In this document: piece after piece, positions 2,410-13,581 of the stretch
Layout of the letters: every line of letters begins with the position of its first letter
Position numbering within the stretch: position 1 is the first letter of the stretch
The notes under the pieces: model-generated
What the model was told of the DNA's origin: nothing
Seen by the model: the letters and a program-made list of their open reading frames with translations, nothing else
Database searches by the model: none
Source: a virus
Virus record (IMG/VR): IMGVR_UViG_3300017744_000044
Location: 1 to 37,070 of that record
Length of the DNA: 37,070 bases
Direction: 5' to 3' (one strand)
Position numbers and translations under genes: made by a program

Positions 2410-4247
2410 CCGAAGAAAGAATAGGCCGCTCTATCGTGGTAACTATCAATATCAGTTCTCAAATCAGTAGTTGTTAAACTAGCCGCTGAATTACTTGTTG
2501 AATTATTACCTGAATTGTTTGTAGAGTTGTCAATAATAACAACACCATCTCCTTGACCTTTTTTACCAAATCTATTTACAGTTTCAGTTTTATAGGTTGT
2601 CTCTGTTGTATCACCTTGTACTGTTTCTATTGTACTCTTTGAAATGTTATCGCCCTCATTGGTAACTGAACCTGTATCTGTACCGGCTGCCATCACTTCA
2701 TTATATACTCTACTAAACGCCTCGCCTGGACTTTCACCACCTGGTAACATTGCACCAGCAGCCGCAAGACCACCTTTTGCCAATGCTTTCATCATTGTAC
2801 CTAATTTGAAAATATTATTTTTGAGACCTGCAAAATCAAAAGTAAATAGACCTTTAAACCAGTTCCATGCCGACATTACAGGACCGTCTTCGCCTAAAAA
2901 GAATTCTTTTAGTGAGAATGGTTTATCGGGGTCACCAAAATTAAATATGTCTTTCAAGAAGTTAATTGCTAAGTCAAGTGGTAATGATACTACACTAAAG
3001 AAGAAATCAGCTGCACTACCAACTACGCCTGTTAGACCTGACCATATTCTTTCTGTGTCTAGTGTGAATATACCCATTACAAAGTCAACAAGACCACCAA
3101 TAATGCCACTAAAACTTTCTGTGATACTGACACCAAAATCTGCAATGTATGTACCTAAATTTTCTAATCCAAGATATGATAATGCCATGCCAATTAAATC
3201 TGTTATCAATCGTACAAAACTACCAATGAAACCATCTACAATTGCAACAACGGATTCTCTGATACCATCTACAATAGAACCACTTTCACCATAACCATCC
3301 ATAAATCCTTTAACACCATCAAATACTCCTAATATTAATGTCAATGGTAAGAATAATTTACCAACAGTTCTACCAATTGCTTTGATTGGCGCAATGATTT
3401 TACTTAATGCACCACCAGCTTTACCTGCACCTGCCGGTCCTGAAGCACCGCCACCAAATAGTCCCATTATTGCGTTCTTAAACGGAGCAAATACGGCACC
3501 AACTGATTTGGCTGCCTCATCTATTGATGAAGTAATCTTCATAATACCTGGACTACTAAAGAAACTCTTAACTGGTTTTATTAAATTATCATCTAATAGA
3601 AGTTTTATACCAGCAAATGGAGCTTTTGGCAAGTGTTTTGCCTTGAAGTCATCAAATTTTGATAGAATAGGTCCTGATATAGAAGTCTTGAAACCATTTG
3701 TCAAGTTTGTACCAAATGCTTTTGTAGCAATTTTAAAATCATCTACAAGTTTGGCACCAAAACCTAATGTAGTAATAGTACCAATGCCTTTAGCAAAAGT
3801 AGCCATTCCTTTGATAGATTTTAATTGTTGTGGTAATCTTAATATATCTTCTATATTCATTGCCTTTGCAAAAGCGGCTAAGGCAAATATACCTGCAAGA
3901 GCAGGCATTTTGAAATCACCAGTCATCTCTGATTTACTAGGCATAGAGACAGTAGATTGACTAGCTACATCTCTTTTTTCTTTTCTTAATTCAGCAGCTT
4001 GACTTCGTTCTCTTGCTAATTGGTCTTTGTCAAACTGAAACATCTGTCGTAAGGTGTCCATGAAACCTTGCGTGTTTCTTTCGTTCTCTTTACCAATCGA
4101 CCTTAAATCTTCTAATATAGGAATAGAACCATTATCATTGGCTGCTACAGCACCTGCACCACCAGTTATCGCACTACCAACAGCCATTTGTGCTGATTGA
4201 ATACTTGCGACTAAACTACCTCTTGTTTTACCTGTGTTCTCTGCCAT
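2406..4247 (-). CDS. Tail tape-measure protein (gp29-like)
   Basis: The product is 613 aa, near the length of T4 gp29 (590 aa). Residues about 40-100 are a charged helical region. Hydrophobic segments follow near 115-130, and a long Gly/Ala-rich hydrophobic part spans about 285-430. The C-terminus has Thr/Asn/Ser-rich low complexity (NSTNNSGNNSTSNS). This layout is typical of tape-measure proteins, which set tail length and may enter the host envelope. The gene lies downstream of the chaperone pair as expected. The start overlaps the iscU stop as TAATG. Specific identity with gp29 is inferred from size and position. Confidence 0.6.
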   Translation of the reverse strand: MAENTGKTRGSLVASIQSAQMAVGSAITGGAGAVAANDNGSIPILEDLRSIGKENERNTQGFMDTLRQMFQFDKDQLARERSQAAELRKEKRDVASQSTVSMPSKSEMTGDFKMPALAGIFALAAFAKAMNIEDILRLPQQLKSIKGMATFAKGIGTITTLGFGAKLVDDFKIATKAFGTNLTNGFKTSISGPILSKFDDFKAKHLPKAPFAGIKLLLDDNLIKPVKSFFSSPGIMKITSSIDEAAKSVGAVFAPFKNAIMGLFGGGASGPAGAGKAGGALSKIIAPIKAIGRTVGKLFLPLTLILGVFDGVKGFMDGYGESGSIVDGIRESVVAIVDGFIGSFVRLITDLIGMALSYLGLENLGTYIADFGVSITESFSGIIGGLVDFVMGIFTLDTERIWSGLTGVVGSAADFFFSVVSLPLDLAINFLKDIFNFGDPDKPFSLKEFFLGEDGPVMSAWNWFKGLFTFDFAGLKNNIFKLGTMMKALAKGGLAAAGAMLPGGESPGEAFSRVYNEVMAAGTDTGSVTNEGDNISKSTIETVQGDTTETTYKTETVNRFGKKGQGDGVVIIDNSTNNSGNNSTSNSAASLTTTDLRTDIDSYHDRAAYSFFG

Positions 4248-4624
4248 TACGCTACCTTACTCTTATAATTTGCGATTGCTGATTTAATTGCGTCTTCAGC
4301 TAATACACTACAATGTATTTTTACTGGCGGAAGTGCCAGTTCTTCTACAATGTCTAAATTCTTTATTTCTTGTGCCTGTGTTAAAGACTTACCTTTTACC
4401 ATTTCTGTAACCAAACTGCTACTTGCAATAGCACTACCACAACCGTATGTCTTAAACTTAGCGTCTGTTATAATATCATCTTTGACTTCAATTTGTAATT
4501 TCATTACATCACCACATGCTGGCGCACCGACCATACCTGTGCCGACATCTACTCTTTTACCATCCATACTACCCACATTTCGTGGATTTTCATAATGGTC
4601 TAATACTTTATCTGAATATGCCAT
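4247..4624 (-). CDS. iscU: Iron-sulfur cluster scaffold protein IscU
   Basis: This 125-aa protein is full-length (E. coli IscU is 128 aa) and closely follows bacterial IscU. It has the N-terminal YSDKVLDHYENPRNVG, ligand Cys37 in GAPACGD with Asp39, Cys62 in YGCGSAIASSS, and Cys105 in KIHCS after the HscA-binding LPPVK motif (98-102). IscU receives sulfur from IscS, builds 2Fe-2S clusters and passes them on. No iscS, hscA or ferredoxin gene is visible here, so host partners would be needed. The gene is joined by TAATG overlaps to the membrane protein before it and the tape measure after it, so it is probably expressed late. Confidence 0.96.
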   Translation of the reverse strand: MAYSDKVLDHYENPRNVGSMDGKRVDVGTGMVGAPACGDVMKLQIEVKDDIITDAKFKTYGCGSAIASSSLVTEMVKGKSLTQAQEIKNLDIVEELALPPVKIHCSVLAEDAIKSAIANYKSKVA

Positions 4625-4845: not shown

Positions 4846-5168
4846 TATTTCTTACCTTTACTTGAACCTGTATATAAACCAAACCAGGCAGCGCCAGCAC
4901 CAACAACGATACTGATTAACCCACTCTGTTCCATAGTAGGAGCAGATAAGTTCATATACCATATTACACATTTATACAATAATATAATATAAACTGTTAA
5001 GAATAGTCTTGGAAAGATACGCCAAGCGTCAACGGCTCTTGCCATATGTATTATTCTTGCATATGGATTAACACCAAGGTCTTTGATTGAAGTATCTACT
5101 TCTAAATCAACCTTGATTTTCTGTTTAGGTTCTGCAACCTTAACTTCTTGTTTTACTTCTTCAGCCAT
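4845..5168 (-). CDS. Holin-like two-span membrane protein
   Basis: This is a 107-aa protein. The first 45 residues are charged and Lys/Glu/Val rich. Membrane segments follow at about 52-71 (IFPRLFLTVYIILLYKCVIWY) and 84-101 (LISIVVGAGAAWFGLYTG), with a basic KGKK end. The FPRxFL and GAGAAWFGLY patterns recur in small late proteins of marine T4-like phages, some thought to be holins. Size and topology fit a class II holin, but the gene sits inside the tail operon. A tail-associated membrane role remains possible. The start overlaps the upstream stop as TAATG. Confidence 0.6.
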   Translation of the reverse strand: MAEEVKQEVKVAEPKQKIKVDLEVDTSIKDLGVNPYARIIHMARAVDAWRIFPRLFLTVYIILLYKCVIWYMNLSAPTMEQSGLISIVVGAGAAWFGLYTGSSKGKK

Positions 5169-5308
5169 TATTTTCTACCTCGTAGTTGGCGTTCTTTCGC
5201 CTTTTCGTTTTCTTCTTTTATGTGAGCCACCAAAAGGTTCACATAAATTTCCCTCTCCCATGGCACCATATTTTCTAATTCACTCAAACTATATTTATGA
5301 TGTTGCAT
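5168..5308 (-). CDS. Tail-assembly chaperone C-terminal domain (frameshift partner of gp26)
   Basis: As a separate ORF this encodes 46 aa, with SLSELENMVPWEREIYVNLL followed by a charged helix. The PWEREIY pattern is typical of the downstream half of tail-assembly chaperone pairs. The ATG at 5308 has no ribosome site within 12 nt. The same frame is open upstream, without a stop, through the last 11 codons of gp26 to a T TTT TTC slippery heptamer. It is therefore more likely made mainly as a gp26 fusion of about 300 aa. In the T4 gene order, gp51 would stand here. Confidence 0.7.
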   Translation of the reverse strand: MQHHKYSLSELENMVPWEREIYVNLLVAHIKEENEKAKERQLRGRK

Positions 5309-5337
5309 TAAAGCAAAGTTAACCTGGAAATGATTTT

Positions 5338-6069
5338 CTAGGCTGTCGTGAGAGAGGGCGACCCGAAAAAATCTTGTAGCCCGCTCAAAACTACTTTACT
5401 TTTCACTTTAGTTTTAGGATTAGTTACCTCAATCTCATGTTTGAGTTTTGGCATAGTTGTAAAGAATGTTTGTATTTTGTTAAAGTTTTCACTTGTTAAA
5501 GTCTCAACAAAAGCATTCAATTCTTTCTGACTATAATCCGTAGCTTGGTGTATTTCTTCACCATCATAAATTTGATAGATTGATTTGCTAATAATATCAA
5601 ACAATTGATTAGTCTTCATATTGTCAGCATCCATACTTGGGTCAAAGTCTTCCATTGTAGGATATTTCATTAACATCTTAATCTTATCATTAACTTGAAT
5701 TTCGTTAGTATGAGTTTCATCAACTTGAACCTCAACCTCTGTTAAATCCACTTCTACATTTGCAAAAGTTTCATTGTCGTCTGGACATTTCACTTTCAGT
5801 TTTGATACCTCTCCAACTGATTTAGCTCTTATCTGTAAAAAGATGTATTCTAAATCAAAGGTAGGCATTTTACTCACATTGATAGTACCAAATGTACATG
5901 CACTAACAATCTCTTTCAACGCATTTTGAATTTGACCATTCTCACCAGATTCCATTGCCATCAAAAGTATCTTTTCTTCTTTTACAAGAAAAGGTCTAAA
6001 TTTGACCTTGGTATCTTGACTTGGTAAAGTCAATTCATATGTCGCTGTTTCTAATATAGGCAAAGCCAT
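5338..6069 (-). CDS. 26: Baseplate hub / tail chaperone protein gp26
   Basis: This 243-aa protein has the family N-terminus: TYELTLPSQDTKVKFRPFLV followed by KEEKILLMAME. A central acidic region has CPDDNE, and the C-terminal helical part ends LQDFFGSPSLTTA. It matches the T4-type gp26 base-plate family. In T4, gp26 is needed for central hub assembly. Its place just before the tape measure and the frameshift setup at its 3' end suggest a G/GT-type chaperone for the tape measure, which is inference. The start has a good upstream AAGGAGAT. Confidence 0.8.
   Translation of the reverse strand: MALPILETATYELTLPSQDTKVKFRPFLVKEEKILLMAMESGENGQIQNALKEIVSACTFGTINVSKMPTFDLEYIFLQIRAKSVGEVSKLKVKCPDDNETFANVEVDLTEVEVQVDETHTNEIQVNDKIKMLMKYPTMEDFDPSMDADNMKTNQLFDIISKSIYQIYDGEEIHQATDYSQKELNAFVETLTSENFNKIQTFFTTMPKLKHEIEVTNPKTKVKSKVVLSGLQDFFGSPSLTTA
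5365..5371 (-). promoter_or_regulatory. Probable -1 ribosomal frameshift site in gp26
   Basis: In the gp26 frame the sequence reads ..GA T TTT TTC GGG, a perfect X XXY YYZ slippery heptamer at Phe234-Phe235. Slipping back one base opens 19 codons (RVALSHDSLENHFQVNFAL) that lead directly into the PWEREIY domain. A small GC stem (GTCG at 5362-5359 with CGAC at 5348-5345) lies just downstream. The zero frame stops 8 codons later. Lambda G/GT and P2 E/E' use this arrangement in tail chaperone genes. Confidence 0.75.
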
Positions 6070-6087: not shown

Positions 6088-7035
6088 TTAAATAAATGGT
6101 GGAAATACTCTTCCACCTGTAATTCGACCTATTGGGGCATTTCTCTTAACTTGACCCAATACATCACGACCAACCCTCTGCAATTCAGGTGGTAACTTAT
6201 TAAGTATTCCACCAAAGAGACCAAAGTTCTTCGCCGTCTTAATTGTAGGTACATCACCCATTGATTTACCTATTGTTGCGCCGTCTATTTGGTCTGTTGT
6301 TAAATTGTGCCAATTTCTAAAATTAAAAGTAATTGGTATATTGTGAGGACTGTCCGTTGTTCCATATCCGTACTCAACACCACCAACAACTTGTGGGTAG
6401 CATTCCATTAATCGTACACCATATGTAATTCTATCTCTATCATCAGCAGTATCAAATGAACCTAACTGATATATGTCCATGTGACCAATATAGTCATCAT
6501 AGAAATTCATGTTGTGGCTATCTTTGTTAAAGATTAACTTTTGCCACTCTTCAAAGAAAACTCTTTGTCTTAAAAATTTGTCTGCATAAAATGTCATCTC
6601 GACATTACCTGGAAAACTATAACCATATGGCATTTGTCTACCTGGTCCATATGTAATATGGTCTGTTGTGTTAATGTCTCTACTAGGCATAGTTACCTTA
6701 TTACACATCATAGAAACATTTTGTTGTAATTCTGTTGAGTTATAATCTTTATATGTTTGGTGTGGTGGAGGACCGTATGATGTCTGTTTTCTTCCTACAT
6801 CACCTAATTTATATTTTTGAGGCATGAAAAATCTTACAACATATCTAGTTGGTCTTGAAAGACCCTCACCTTGATTTAAGGCTGCTGTAAATCTACCAAT
6901 TGTGGATTCTGGATTGCCACCTGGCTTTCTCTGTAATCTTGGGTCGCCCTCAACATTATCTAGTGACCTATCTCTAGGAAATCCTAGTCGAATATCAAAG
7001 TTACCAATTCTACGACCACCTCTTAATATTGCCAT
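6088..7035 (-). CDS. 54: Baseplate tail-tube initiator, gp54/gp19-like
   Basis: The product is 315 aa; T4 gp54 is 320 aa. After a basic N-terminus, residues about 60-240 show the tube-protein fold pattern of gp19/gp54: YVVRFFMP, CNKVTMPSRDINTTDHITYG, PGNVEMTFYAD, then a NFYDDYIGHMDIYQL strand and NIPITFNFRNW. Such proteins form the platform on which the tail tube polymerises. gp48 is found elsewhere in this module, which makes gp54 the likely identity. A different tube-fold baseplate protein is possible. The gene follows the 7035-7589 gene as a TAATG overlap. Confidence 0.65.
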   Translation of the reverse strand: MAILRGGRRIGNFDIRLGFPRDRSLDNVEGDPRLQRKPGGNPESTIGRFTAALNQGEGLSRPTRYVVRFFMPQKYKLGDVGRKQTSYGPPPHQTYKDYNSTELQQNVSMMCNKVTMPSRDINTTDHITYGPGRQMPYGYSFPGNVEMTFYADKFLRQRVFFEEWQKLIFNKDSHNMNFYDDYIGHMDIYQLGSFDTADDRDRITYGVRLMECYPQVVGGVEYGYGTTDSPHNIPITFNFRNWHNLTTDQIDGATIGKSMGDVPTIKTAKNFGLFGGILNKLPPELQRVGRDVLGQVKRNAPIGRITGGRVFPPFI

Positions 7036-8660: not shown

Positions 8661-9155
8661 TTATAAGTTTTGTAAAACATTTTCTGCATTACTCACTTCG
8701 AAAGGGTCAGTTGTACAATTGTCTTTGAATCCAGGCTCTTCATATAATTTTTCAACAACGCCATCATTAATGATAGCGGCGTATCTCCACGACCTGTATC
8801 CAAATCCCTTGTCGTCTTTCTCGACAAGCATTCCCATACCTCTAGTAAACTTACCAGAGCCATCAGGAATTAGTTTCACTTTCTCTATGCCTAGGTCTTT
8901 GCCCCAAGCATTCATTACAAAAGCGTCATTAACTGATATACAATAAACTTCATCAATACCTTTATTTAAAAAGTTGTTGTAGTTTTTCTCGTAATCAGGT
9001 AATTGGTGTTCAGAGCAAGTTGGTGTAAATGCACCAGGTAGTGAAAACAATATCACTCTCTTGCCCTTAAAAAAATCATTTGTATCTTTCTCGACCCACT
9101 CGCCAAGAGTTCTACATTTAAATTTAACATTTGGTACTGTATTATTTACTCTCAT
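8661..9155 (-). CDS. Peroxiredoxin (Prx5-type)
   Basis: This is a 164-aa thioredoxin-fold peroxidase. The active-site signature PGAFTPTCSEHQLP holds the peroxidatic Cys47 with Thr44. The family features YEKNYNNFLNKGIDEVYCISVNDAFVMNAWGK and the YRSWRYAAIINDG strand follow. It would reduce hydrogen peroxide or organic peroxides during infection; a reductant could be host glutathione or the phage glutaredoxin (22837-23103). The ATG at 9155 was chosen because AAGGA stands 5 nt before it. Two in-frame upstream starts are spaced worse. It shares a transcript with gp32. Confidence 0.93.
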   Translation of the reverse strand: MRVNNTVPNVKFKCRTLGEWVEKDTNDFFKGKRVILFSLPGAFTPTCSEHQLPDYEKNYNNFLNKGIDEVYCISVNDAFVMNAWGKDLGIEKVKLIPDGSGKFTRGMGMLVEKDDKGFGYRSWRYAAIINDGVVEKLYEEPGFKDNCTTDPFEVSNAENVLQNL

Positions 9156-9234
9156 CATATTCCTTATTCTTCTTTGCCCATTCACTAGCACTTTCACCTT
9201 TTGGTAGTGAGGACTTAATTAGTTTCTCTTTCAT
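9142..9234 (-). CDS. Possible 30-aa leader protein before peroxiredoxin
   Basis: The short ORF encodes MKEKLIKSSLPKGESASEWA and a charged KKNKEYDESK end. Its last 14 nt overlap the peroxiredoxin start, a layout that suggests translational coupling. It is the first ORF after the strong promoter at 9294-9322. No clear ribosome site precedes its ATG. The codon content looks like coding sequence of this phage, but at 30 codons this remains uncertain. Confidence 0.4.
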   Translation of the reverse strand: MKEKLIKSSLPKGESASEWAKKNKEYDESK

Positions 9235-13230: not shown

Positions 13231-13266
13231 TTATTAAGCTGCTAATGCAAAGTTATTATCGTTTGC
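13231..13266 (-). other. tmRNA proteolysis-tag reading frame
   Basis: The resume codon GCA (13266-13264) opens a ten-codon frame ANDNNFALAA closed by two TAA stops. The E. coli tag is ANDENYALAA. The bases before the resume codon (TAAAC) keep the A at -4, which is important for setting the frame in E. coli. The ALAA end is the usual ClpXP degradation signal. Confidence 0.93.
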
Positions 13267-13356
13267 GTTTAATTAGCATATAAGGTTGCCACCTATTAAT
13301 CTCTTACAAATTTCTCAACATCTGTCGAATCCTATATCAGCCCCATCATAAACACA

Positions 13357-13488
13357 CTATTTACAAAGGTCTTCATACTTTGTGGCATGTACTCTATGTT
13401 TAGACAAATCTCTACCAAGATAACCTGGTACATGTCCTTCTCTCTTTTTCAAGAAATTATTAAATACATTTTTAATCCACTTTAGCAT
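13357..13488 (-). CDS. 43-aa protein encoded inside the tmRNA intervening segment
   Basis: The ORF encodes a basic 43-aa protein: an amphipathic start MLKWIKNVFNNFLKKREG, then HVPGYLGRDLSKHRVHATK and YEDLCK. A good ribosome site (GAAGGA, 6 nt from the ATG) lies between the tmRNA acceptor end (13514) and the ATG at 13488. The stop is 12 nt before the tmRNA 5' end (13344). The whole gene therefore lies in the part that must be cut out to make two-piece tmRNA. I do not recognise the protein. Coding signals are good for its size. Confidence 0.7.
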   Translation of the reverse strand: MLKWIKNVFNNFLKKREGHVPGYLGRDLSKHRVHATKYEDLCK

Positions 13489-13513
13489 TTACTTTCCTTC
13501 TCTAATGTGTTTA

Positions 13514-13581
13514 TGGTGGAGCTGGAGGGAATTGCACCCTCGTCCAGTCTGTCTACCATATTTGTCGTCAACGACTAATTC
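13514..13581 (-). ncRNA. ssrA: tmRNA acceptor piece (3' part of permuted ssrA)
   Basis: The minus strand ends with CAGCTCCACCA at 13514, which pairs with the GGGGCTG start of the coding piece. Before it is a T arm with stem GAGGG/CCCTC and loop TGCAATT; the usual second T of the loop is G here. Further upstream is a GTCG-TTGA-CGAC hairpin. A 6-nt match (ACAAAT at 13565-13560 with ATTTGT at 13311-13306) could help join the two pieces. The 5' boundary is set at the end of the preceding gene and is approximate. Confidence 0.88.

Follow-up and report, generated by a model that had tools for sequence, protein, structure and literature searches.

In a marine T4-like phage, a predicted -1 frameshift joins gp26 to a gp51-type tail in a probable tail assembly chaperone

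The window analysed here, the whole 37,070-base IMG/VR virus record IMGVR_UViG_3300017744_000044, carries a gp26 locus that in all likelihood encodes the tail assembly chaperone of a marine T4-like phage, with a -1 frameshift predicted to give a short and a long form of one protein. This prediction draws on four features of the sequence: a slippery heptamer, its phase in the gp26 frame, conserved coding in the -1 frame, and colinearity of the joined product with the single-frame gp51 of T4-type phages. Comparison of the sequences very strongly supports programmed -1 frameshifting. We infer the slippage, its efficiency and the chaperone action, and propose a mechanism by analogy with lambda gpG/gpGT. 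Most ribosomes would finish gp26 at its own stop codon and release the short form, and a smaller number would slip back by one base while both tRNAs sit on U UUU UUC, enter the -1 frame and add the gp51-type tail to give the long form. Many short and few long copies would then coat the tape measure protein, and the added gp51-type domain may recruit tail tube subunits.

The gp26 gene is the single PF12322 match in the window record; at 231 bits against a cut-off of 24.5 its product belongs to this family by profile, and its reading frame ends with a TAG codon at 5340-5338 on the minus strand. As the original prediction had noticed, a T TTT TTC heptamer lies in the gp26 frame (5371-5365, minus strand) eight codons before the stop, and the -1 frame is open from there into a downstream 46-aa open reading frame (ORF); it stays open to a TAA codon (5170-5168) that shares bases with the ATG after it. 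In translation this frame gives FFRVALSHDSLENHFQVNFAL, followed by MQHHKYSL...PWEREIY..., and the product after a -1 shift would be a gp26::gp51-tail fusion of 300 aa that reads FFRVALSHDSLENHFQVNFALMQHHKYSLSELENMVPWEREIY... up to the same TAA. The 46-aa ORF had been described as lacking a ribosome site of its own, and the sole candidate for one is an AGG 15-17 nt 5' of its ATG, with nothing similar to a Shine-Dalgarno (SD) motif nearer. The 'PWEREIY chaperone domain' of the same prediction is indeed joined by the -1 frame, but is really the C-terminal part of the known gp51 family (phrog_634, 'baseplate hub assembly catalyst'). Against this profile the 68-aa -1 stretch scores 106 bits and the 46-aa ORF alone 72 bits, so that the match extends upstream of the ATG of the 46-aa ORF. 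This ORF is unlikely to be a separate gene and is probably not one.

Conservation of the heptamer was surveyed in a total of 189 loci, which comprise the best 80 of 597 qualifying IMG/VR relatives, sets seeded with Vibrio, T4, Rhizobium, Sinorhizobium and Aeromonas proteins, and named genomes. The gp51 tail lies in the -1 frame of gp26 in 164 of these loci, 17 are of the two-gene (T4/Aeromonas) type, and eight were dropped as cut by or near contig ends, one of which (L051) still has the heptamer; many of the 189 loci are near-copies, and the counts are not independent. An in-phase T TTT TT followed by C (133 loci), T (29) or G (2) is present in all 164 loci of the -1 type. Nine further named records divide into six of the -1 type, again with the heptamer (DLP_6, Aeh1, LG08, Atu_ph04, S-RSM4 and D486), and three with two genes. 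Among the near-copies, L001-L003 have a gp26 that is 100% identical to that of the window. From the -1-type loci, 72 representatives with less than 85% identity over 270 nt were drawn, two of the 164 being excluded from this choice for want of 270 nt around the site. All six T of TTTTTT are invariant in these 72 representatives. The first of them occupies the third position in codons of seven kinds (GAT, AGT, AAT, TCT, GCT, CAT and ACT), and its presence in 72 of 72 representatives, which are not fully independent, against 46.2 expected from the codon usage of their own genes, argues that the heptamer is not due to chance.

The distance from the heptamer start to the 0-frame stop takes five values among the 164 loci: 7 nt (23 loci), 10 nt (100 loci, the commonest spacing), 13 nt (2 loci), 16 nt (3 loci) and 31 nt (36 loci), the last being that of the window. 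A stop codon in the -1 frame stands immediately 5' of the heptamer in 23 of the 164. The frameshift type also occurs in Kyanoviridae, Emdodecavirus and Pootjesviridae records, and a tblastn search of 50,697 phage records gave matches to the 68-aa -1 peptide in 602 and to T4 gp51 in 1339, many near-identical genomes included.

A few loci show irregularities at or beyond the site. Two of them (L154 and L156) show 98-100% identity over the 600 nt leading to the heptamer and 46-72% just beyond it, which may stem either from recombination at this site or from chimeric assembly. In L057 the -1 peptide turns into unrelated sequence past SLTEL, and in L103, which was scored as two-gene all the same, the gp51 frame is broken; sequencing errors or decay may account for both.

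Several lines of evidence suggest that the -1 frame is read as part of one protein. Past the 0-frame stop, third positions of the -1 codons are the most variable (1.46 bits against 1.02 and 0.79; 54 representatives, +18 to +62). Within the stretch of -1 peptide that precedes the ATG of the 46-aa ORF, residues H8, L11, N18 and F19 are kept in 65-71 of the 72 representatives; this conservation, together with the heptamers in 164 of 164 loci, supports the programmed frameshift that had been predicted. Within its first 30 codons the -1 ORF has an ATG in 62 of the 72 representatives and none in 10; the first such ATG follows an SD-like motif in 3 of the 62, and for the first ATG of gp26 the figure is 64 of 72.

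The fusion aligns end to end, across the junction, with the gp51 of Aeromonas phage 25 (E 1e-15) and of T4 (E 3e-9), and aligns with T4 gp26 at E 1e-8, all E-values being computed on a four-protein set; T4 gp26 ends ...GLKEFFELL at the position of the heptamer. By profile, the gp26 and gp51 of T4 and of Aeromonas phage 25 are all four PF12322 proteins, and in T4 gp51 the phrog_150 match covers residues 3-248 and the phrog_634 match residues 147-246. The features of the locus and of its surroundings are collected in Table 1.

Table 1. Features of the predicted chaperone locus and its neighbours in the window
Feature	Position	Strand	Details
gp26-family gene (PF12322); 0-frame product, predicted short form (G-like / TAC-N)	5338..6069	-	243 aa; PF12322 E 1.7e-68, phrog_150 E 2.3e-74
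Putative slippery heptamer T TTT TTC in the gp26 frame	5365..5371	-	context GAT TTT TTC; 8 sense codons, then stop
Dual-coded stretch, heptamer to 0-frame stop	5338..5365	-	stop 31 nt past heptamer start
Predicted -1 extension, gp51-type tail (T-like domain)	5168..5365	-	phrog_634 106 bits; colinear inside gp51 of Aeromonas phage 25 and T4
46-aa ORF, mechanically listed, part of the -1 extension	5168..5308	-	ATG at codon 22 of the -1 peptide in 53/72 relatives
Tail tube gene, directly upstream of gp26	6088..7035	-	phrog_45 tail tube E 1.7e-29
Tape-measure-like ORF (tentative), 613 aa	2406..4247	-	29% identity over 116 aa with HTVC008M putative tape measure, pairwise E 6e-10

Possible RNA stimulators of the frameshift were sought against controls in which codons were re-drawn keeping the amino acids. 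In the 72 representatives, 48-nt segments that start at +6 to +12 fold more stably than their recoded counterparts (mean z -1.18 to -1.28), and segments elsewhere give mean z values of -0.10 to -0.71, save for +24 at -1.05. Stems that score at least 8 and have their 5' arm between +12 and +15 are present in 21 of 72 representatives, against a recoded mean of 4.0 (maximum 6 in 20 draws), although the representatives are related, seven of them with one common stem, and the 21 are not independent cases; at the control places the counts are 5/71 against 4.8, 2/72 against 2.0 and 3/72 against 1.5. This enrichment, 5-8 nt past the heptamer, would fit ribosomal pausing. The stem shared by the seven representatives is GCCTCT/AGAGGC at +13/+37; ACG-2014f has AGTATGGCTC/GAGTCATACT, P-SSM2 has a near-identical stem, and another locus (L112) has a stem of 14 pairs. 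A single universal downstream RNA structure was not found among the representatives, the stems varying by lineage.

In the AlphaFold2 model of the window gp26 (mean predicted local distance difference test score, pLDDT, 84.2) the chain is ordered to about residue 235, and residues 237-243, the 0-frame tail past the heptamer, have a pLDDT below 50. The AlphaFold2 model of a T4-type gp51 (mean pLDDT 89.4) has a closely similar order of helices and strands. Matches in BFVD with E <= 0.001 number 27 for the gp51 model and 53 for the gp26 model; the informatively named rows are mostly baseplate hub, gp26- or gp51-type proteins, and at E 3.8e-3 there is one 'Tape measure chaperone', a 545-aa protein of Citrobacter phage Moon. 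A sequence search for solved relatives gave none below E 0.6.

The order of the genes, tail tube, gp26, -1 extension and tape-measure-like ORF, would fit the G/GT chaperone rule, with the tail tube firmly and the tape measure tentatively identified. The original prediction placed the locus just before the tape-measure region; the ORF in question lies three small genes further on and is weakly identified: the chaperone gene is followed by a 107-aa ORF, a 73-aa ORF and a NifU gene before the 613-aa ORF is reached. This ORF itself had no tape-measure match in a profile search, and compares with the Mosig ORF at the matching place at E 0.019. The NifU-like iron-sulphur scaffold gene (PF01592, E 2.7e-51) occupies 4247-4624 on the minus strand; by annotation, as distinct from family search, the Mosig and HTVC008M records have just 'hypothetical protein' genes at this position.

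Beside the near-copies among the loci, several results weigh against a frameshifting chaperone. The tape-measure identity is weak, the ORF starting at 4247, three genes away from the chaperone gene. Against the PDB, the gp51 model had no Foldseek match with E <= 0.001, and its best match with VIA (Z 4.9) was to C1QBP, with no solved chaperone among the matches; gp51 may belong to that fold family all the same. Aeromonas phage 25 gp26, though a PF12322 protein, is not significantly similar to the fusion by BLASTP (E 0.12). In the window itself no strong stem lies downstream of the heptamer (recoding z -1.16 at +9 and -0.46 at +12), the positional pairing profile shows no clear gain over recoded sequences at +13 to +17, and an SD-like stimulator upstream of the heptamer occurs in 54 of 72 representatives against 51.4 in recoded controls, which is no excess. 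In the stop class of the window (+31, 18 representatives) the third positions of the -1 codons in the dual-coded stretch are no more variable than the others would suggest (0.66 bits against 0.69 for first positions, and 0.43), as expected of two overlapping frames. Finally, 53 of the 72 representatives have an ATG as codon 22 of the -1 peptide, which leaves room for internal initiation.

Such initiation would make the 46-aa ORF a separate small gene, a short gp51 that starts at the ATG at 5308 and is perhaps coupled to the termination of gp26 29 nt upstream. The records of Mosig, HTVC008M, phiM19, Melnitz and S-RSM4 do annotate gp26 and gp51 separately, and the frequent ATG at codon 22 agrees with this. 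We nevertheless hold it to be improbable, since the -1 frame is conserved as protein before that ATG, SD-like motifs are rare in front of the first ATG of the -1 ORF and some representatives have no early ATG, as given above. In addition, a separate gene leaves unexplained both the invariant in-phase TTTTTT and the uninterrupted T4-type gp51 that spans the two halves.

Slippage of RNA polymerase on the T run, which would give net -1 transcripts and require no ribosomal slip, seems to us rather less probable again. Transcriptional slippage is a known recoding route in general, and a run of at least six T is found in 164 of 164 -1-type loci. However, in the 133 loci where the last base is C the run within the heptamer is of six T, which is short for transcriptional slippage; the codon phase X XXY YYZ is invariant; and the stems enriched 5-8 nt downstream suit ribosomal pausing. 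A sequencing error or a recent indel that split one continuous gene could appeal to the single-frame gp51 of T4-type phages, but its probability is close to nil, and it was rejected because the arrangement is shared by 164 of the 189 loci, as well as by six named genomes, with five stop distances and one heptamer.

With programmed ribosomal frameshifting as the preferred reading, genes 26 and 51 of T4 look, on sequence comparison, like the short and long products separately encoded. Like the window gp26, both T4 products are PF12322 proteins, and T4 gp51 carries the phrog_634 tail that corresponds to the -1 extension; unlike the window, T4 has two genes on opposite strands, with gp51 in a single uninterrupted frame. 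In a tree of 57 rows, of which 33 frameshift rows were hand-picked from the locus sets, the N-terminal domains of T4-type gp26 and gp51, with the exception of pv27, fall into one group (22 rows, support 99/97), which adjoins the frameshifting genes of a KVP40-like Vibrio phage and Aeh1. The root was placed at the midpoint and is not fixed, the direction being read from the outgroup pattern. RB43 and pv27 have long branches; the row S26_RB43 groups with gp51 rows (91/70) and pv27 falls elsewhere, and a single clade for all two-gene rows is not rejected (approximately unbiased test, p-AU 0.26). A frameshifting ancestor with a later duplication is the simplest reading, because of this grouping and of the frameshifting in Kyanoviridae, Emdodecavirus and Pootjesviridae. 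We lean towards the view that frameshifting is the old majority state, that T4 genes 26 and 51 arose by duplication of a frameshifting gene, which fixed its two outputs as two loci, and that the heptamer is fixed while the stems 5-8 nt downstream turn over between lineages. The two-gene arrangement itself varies: Vibrio phage pv27 and RB43 have the two genes in tandem on one strand, in opposite orders, and the T4 arrangement is divergent.

Vladimirov, Gautam and Davidson reportedly worked on T4-like tail assembly chaperones in 2022 (Virology 566:9-15). Passages of two open papers that cite Vladimirov et al. 2022 speak of T4-like phages that have a short gene as well as a longer, fused one (PMC10885494) and of poly-T -1 signals in T4-like TAC-N genes (PMC12846349), which makes outdated the remark in the original prediction that no frameshift was established for T4-type gp26. 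The class of frameshifting T4-like chaperones is already known, and the window is an additional member. Open literature, searched mostly by titles, yielded nothing on the stems or on the duplication tree, which Vladimirov et al. 2022 may cover. A passage of PMC12846349 also describes a conserved T-rich slippery site with an open -1 frame downstream in Vandenendeviridae and Andersonviridae (phage Adele), a likeness in the site and not by protein comparison, in other phage families and with the motif GTTTTT. T4 gp26 and gp51 are both listed as hub assembly chaperones in a part of PMC3004832.

For long-tailed phages in general, the relevant part of PMC5009743 (2016) calls G-T frameshifting widely conserved 'except T4', and describes for lambda gpG/gpGT a short form in excess and a long form made by slippage, both of which act on the tape measure, the extension recruiting the tail tube. 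The window gene likewise follows a tail tube gene, a likeness to lambda-type chaperones in arrangement and not by sequence comparison; neither Foldseek nor VIA found a solved relative of the gp51 model. The lambda heptamer differs from T TTT TTC. Marine T4-like phages would offer a natural comparison, in which the ratio of one protein pair would be set either by the ribosome or by two genes. Public records call the two halves separate 'baseplate hub' and 'hub assembly catalyst' genes, or omit the second, as in the RefSeq record of the Straboviridae phage Aeh1, where the -1 gp51 tail at about 2695-2902 has no annotated gene.

Two further observations concern other parts of the window. ARAGORN listed no tRNA or transfer-messenger RNA (tmRNA) in it, and the Rfam family RF04321, a permuted tmRNA, matches 13234-13576 on the minus strand with 92.8 bits (gathering threshold 47). 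A peroxiredoxin-like gene (Redoxin PF08534, E 5.5e-29) at 8661-9197 on the minus strand adjoins the gp32 gene.
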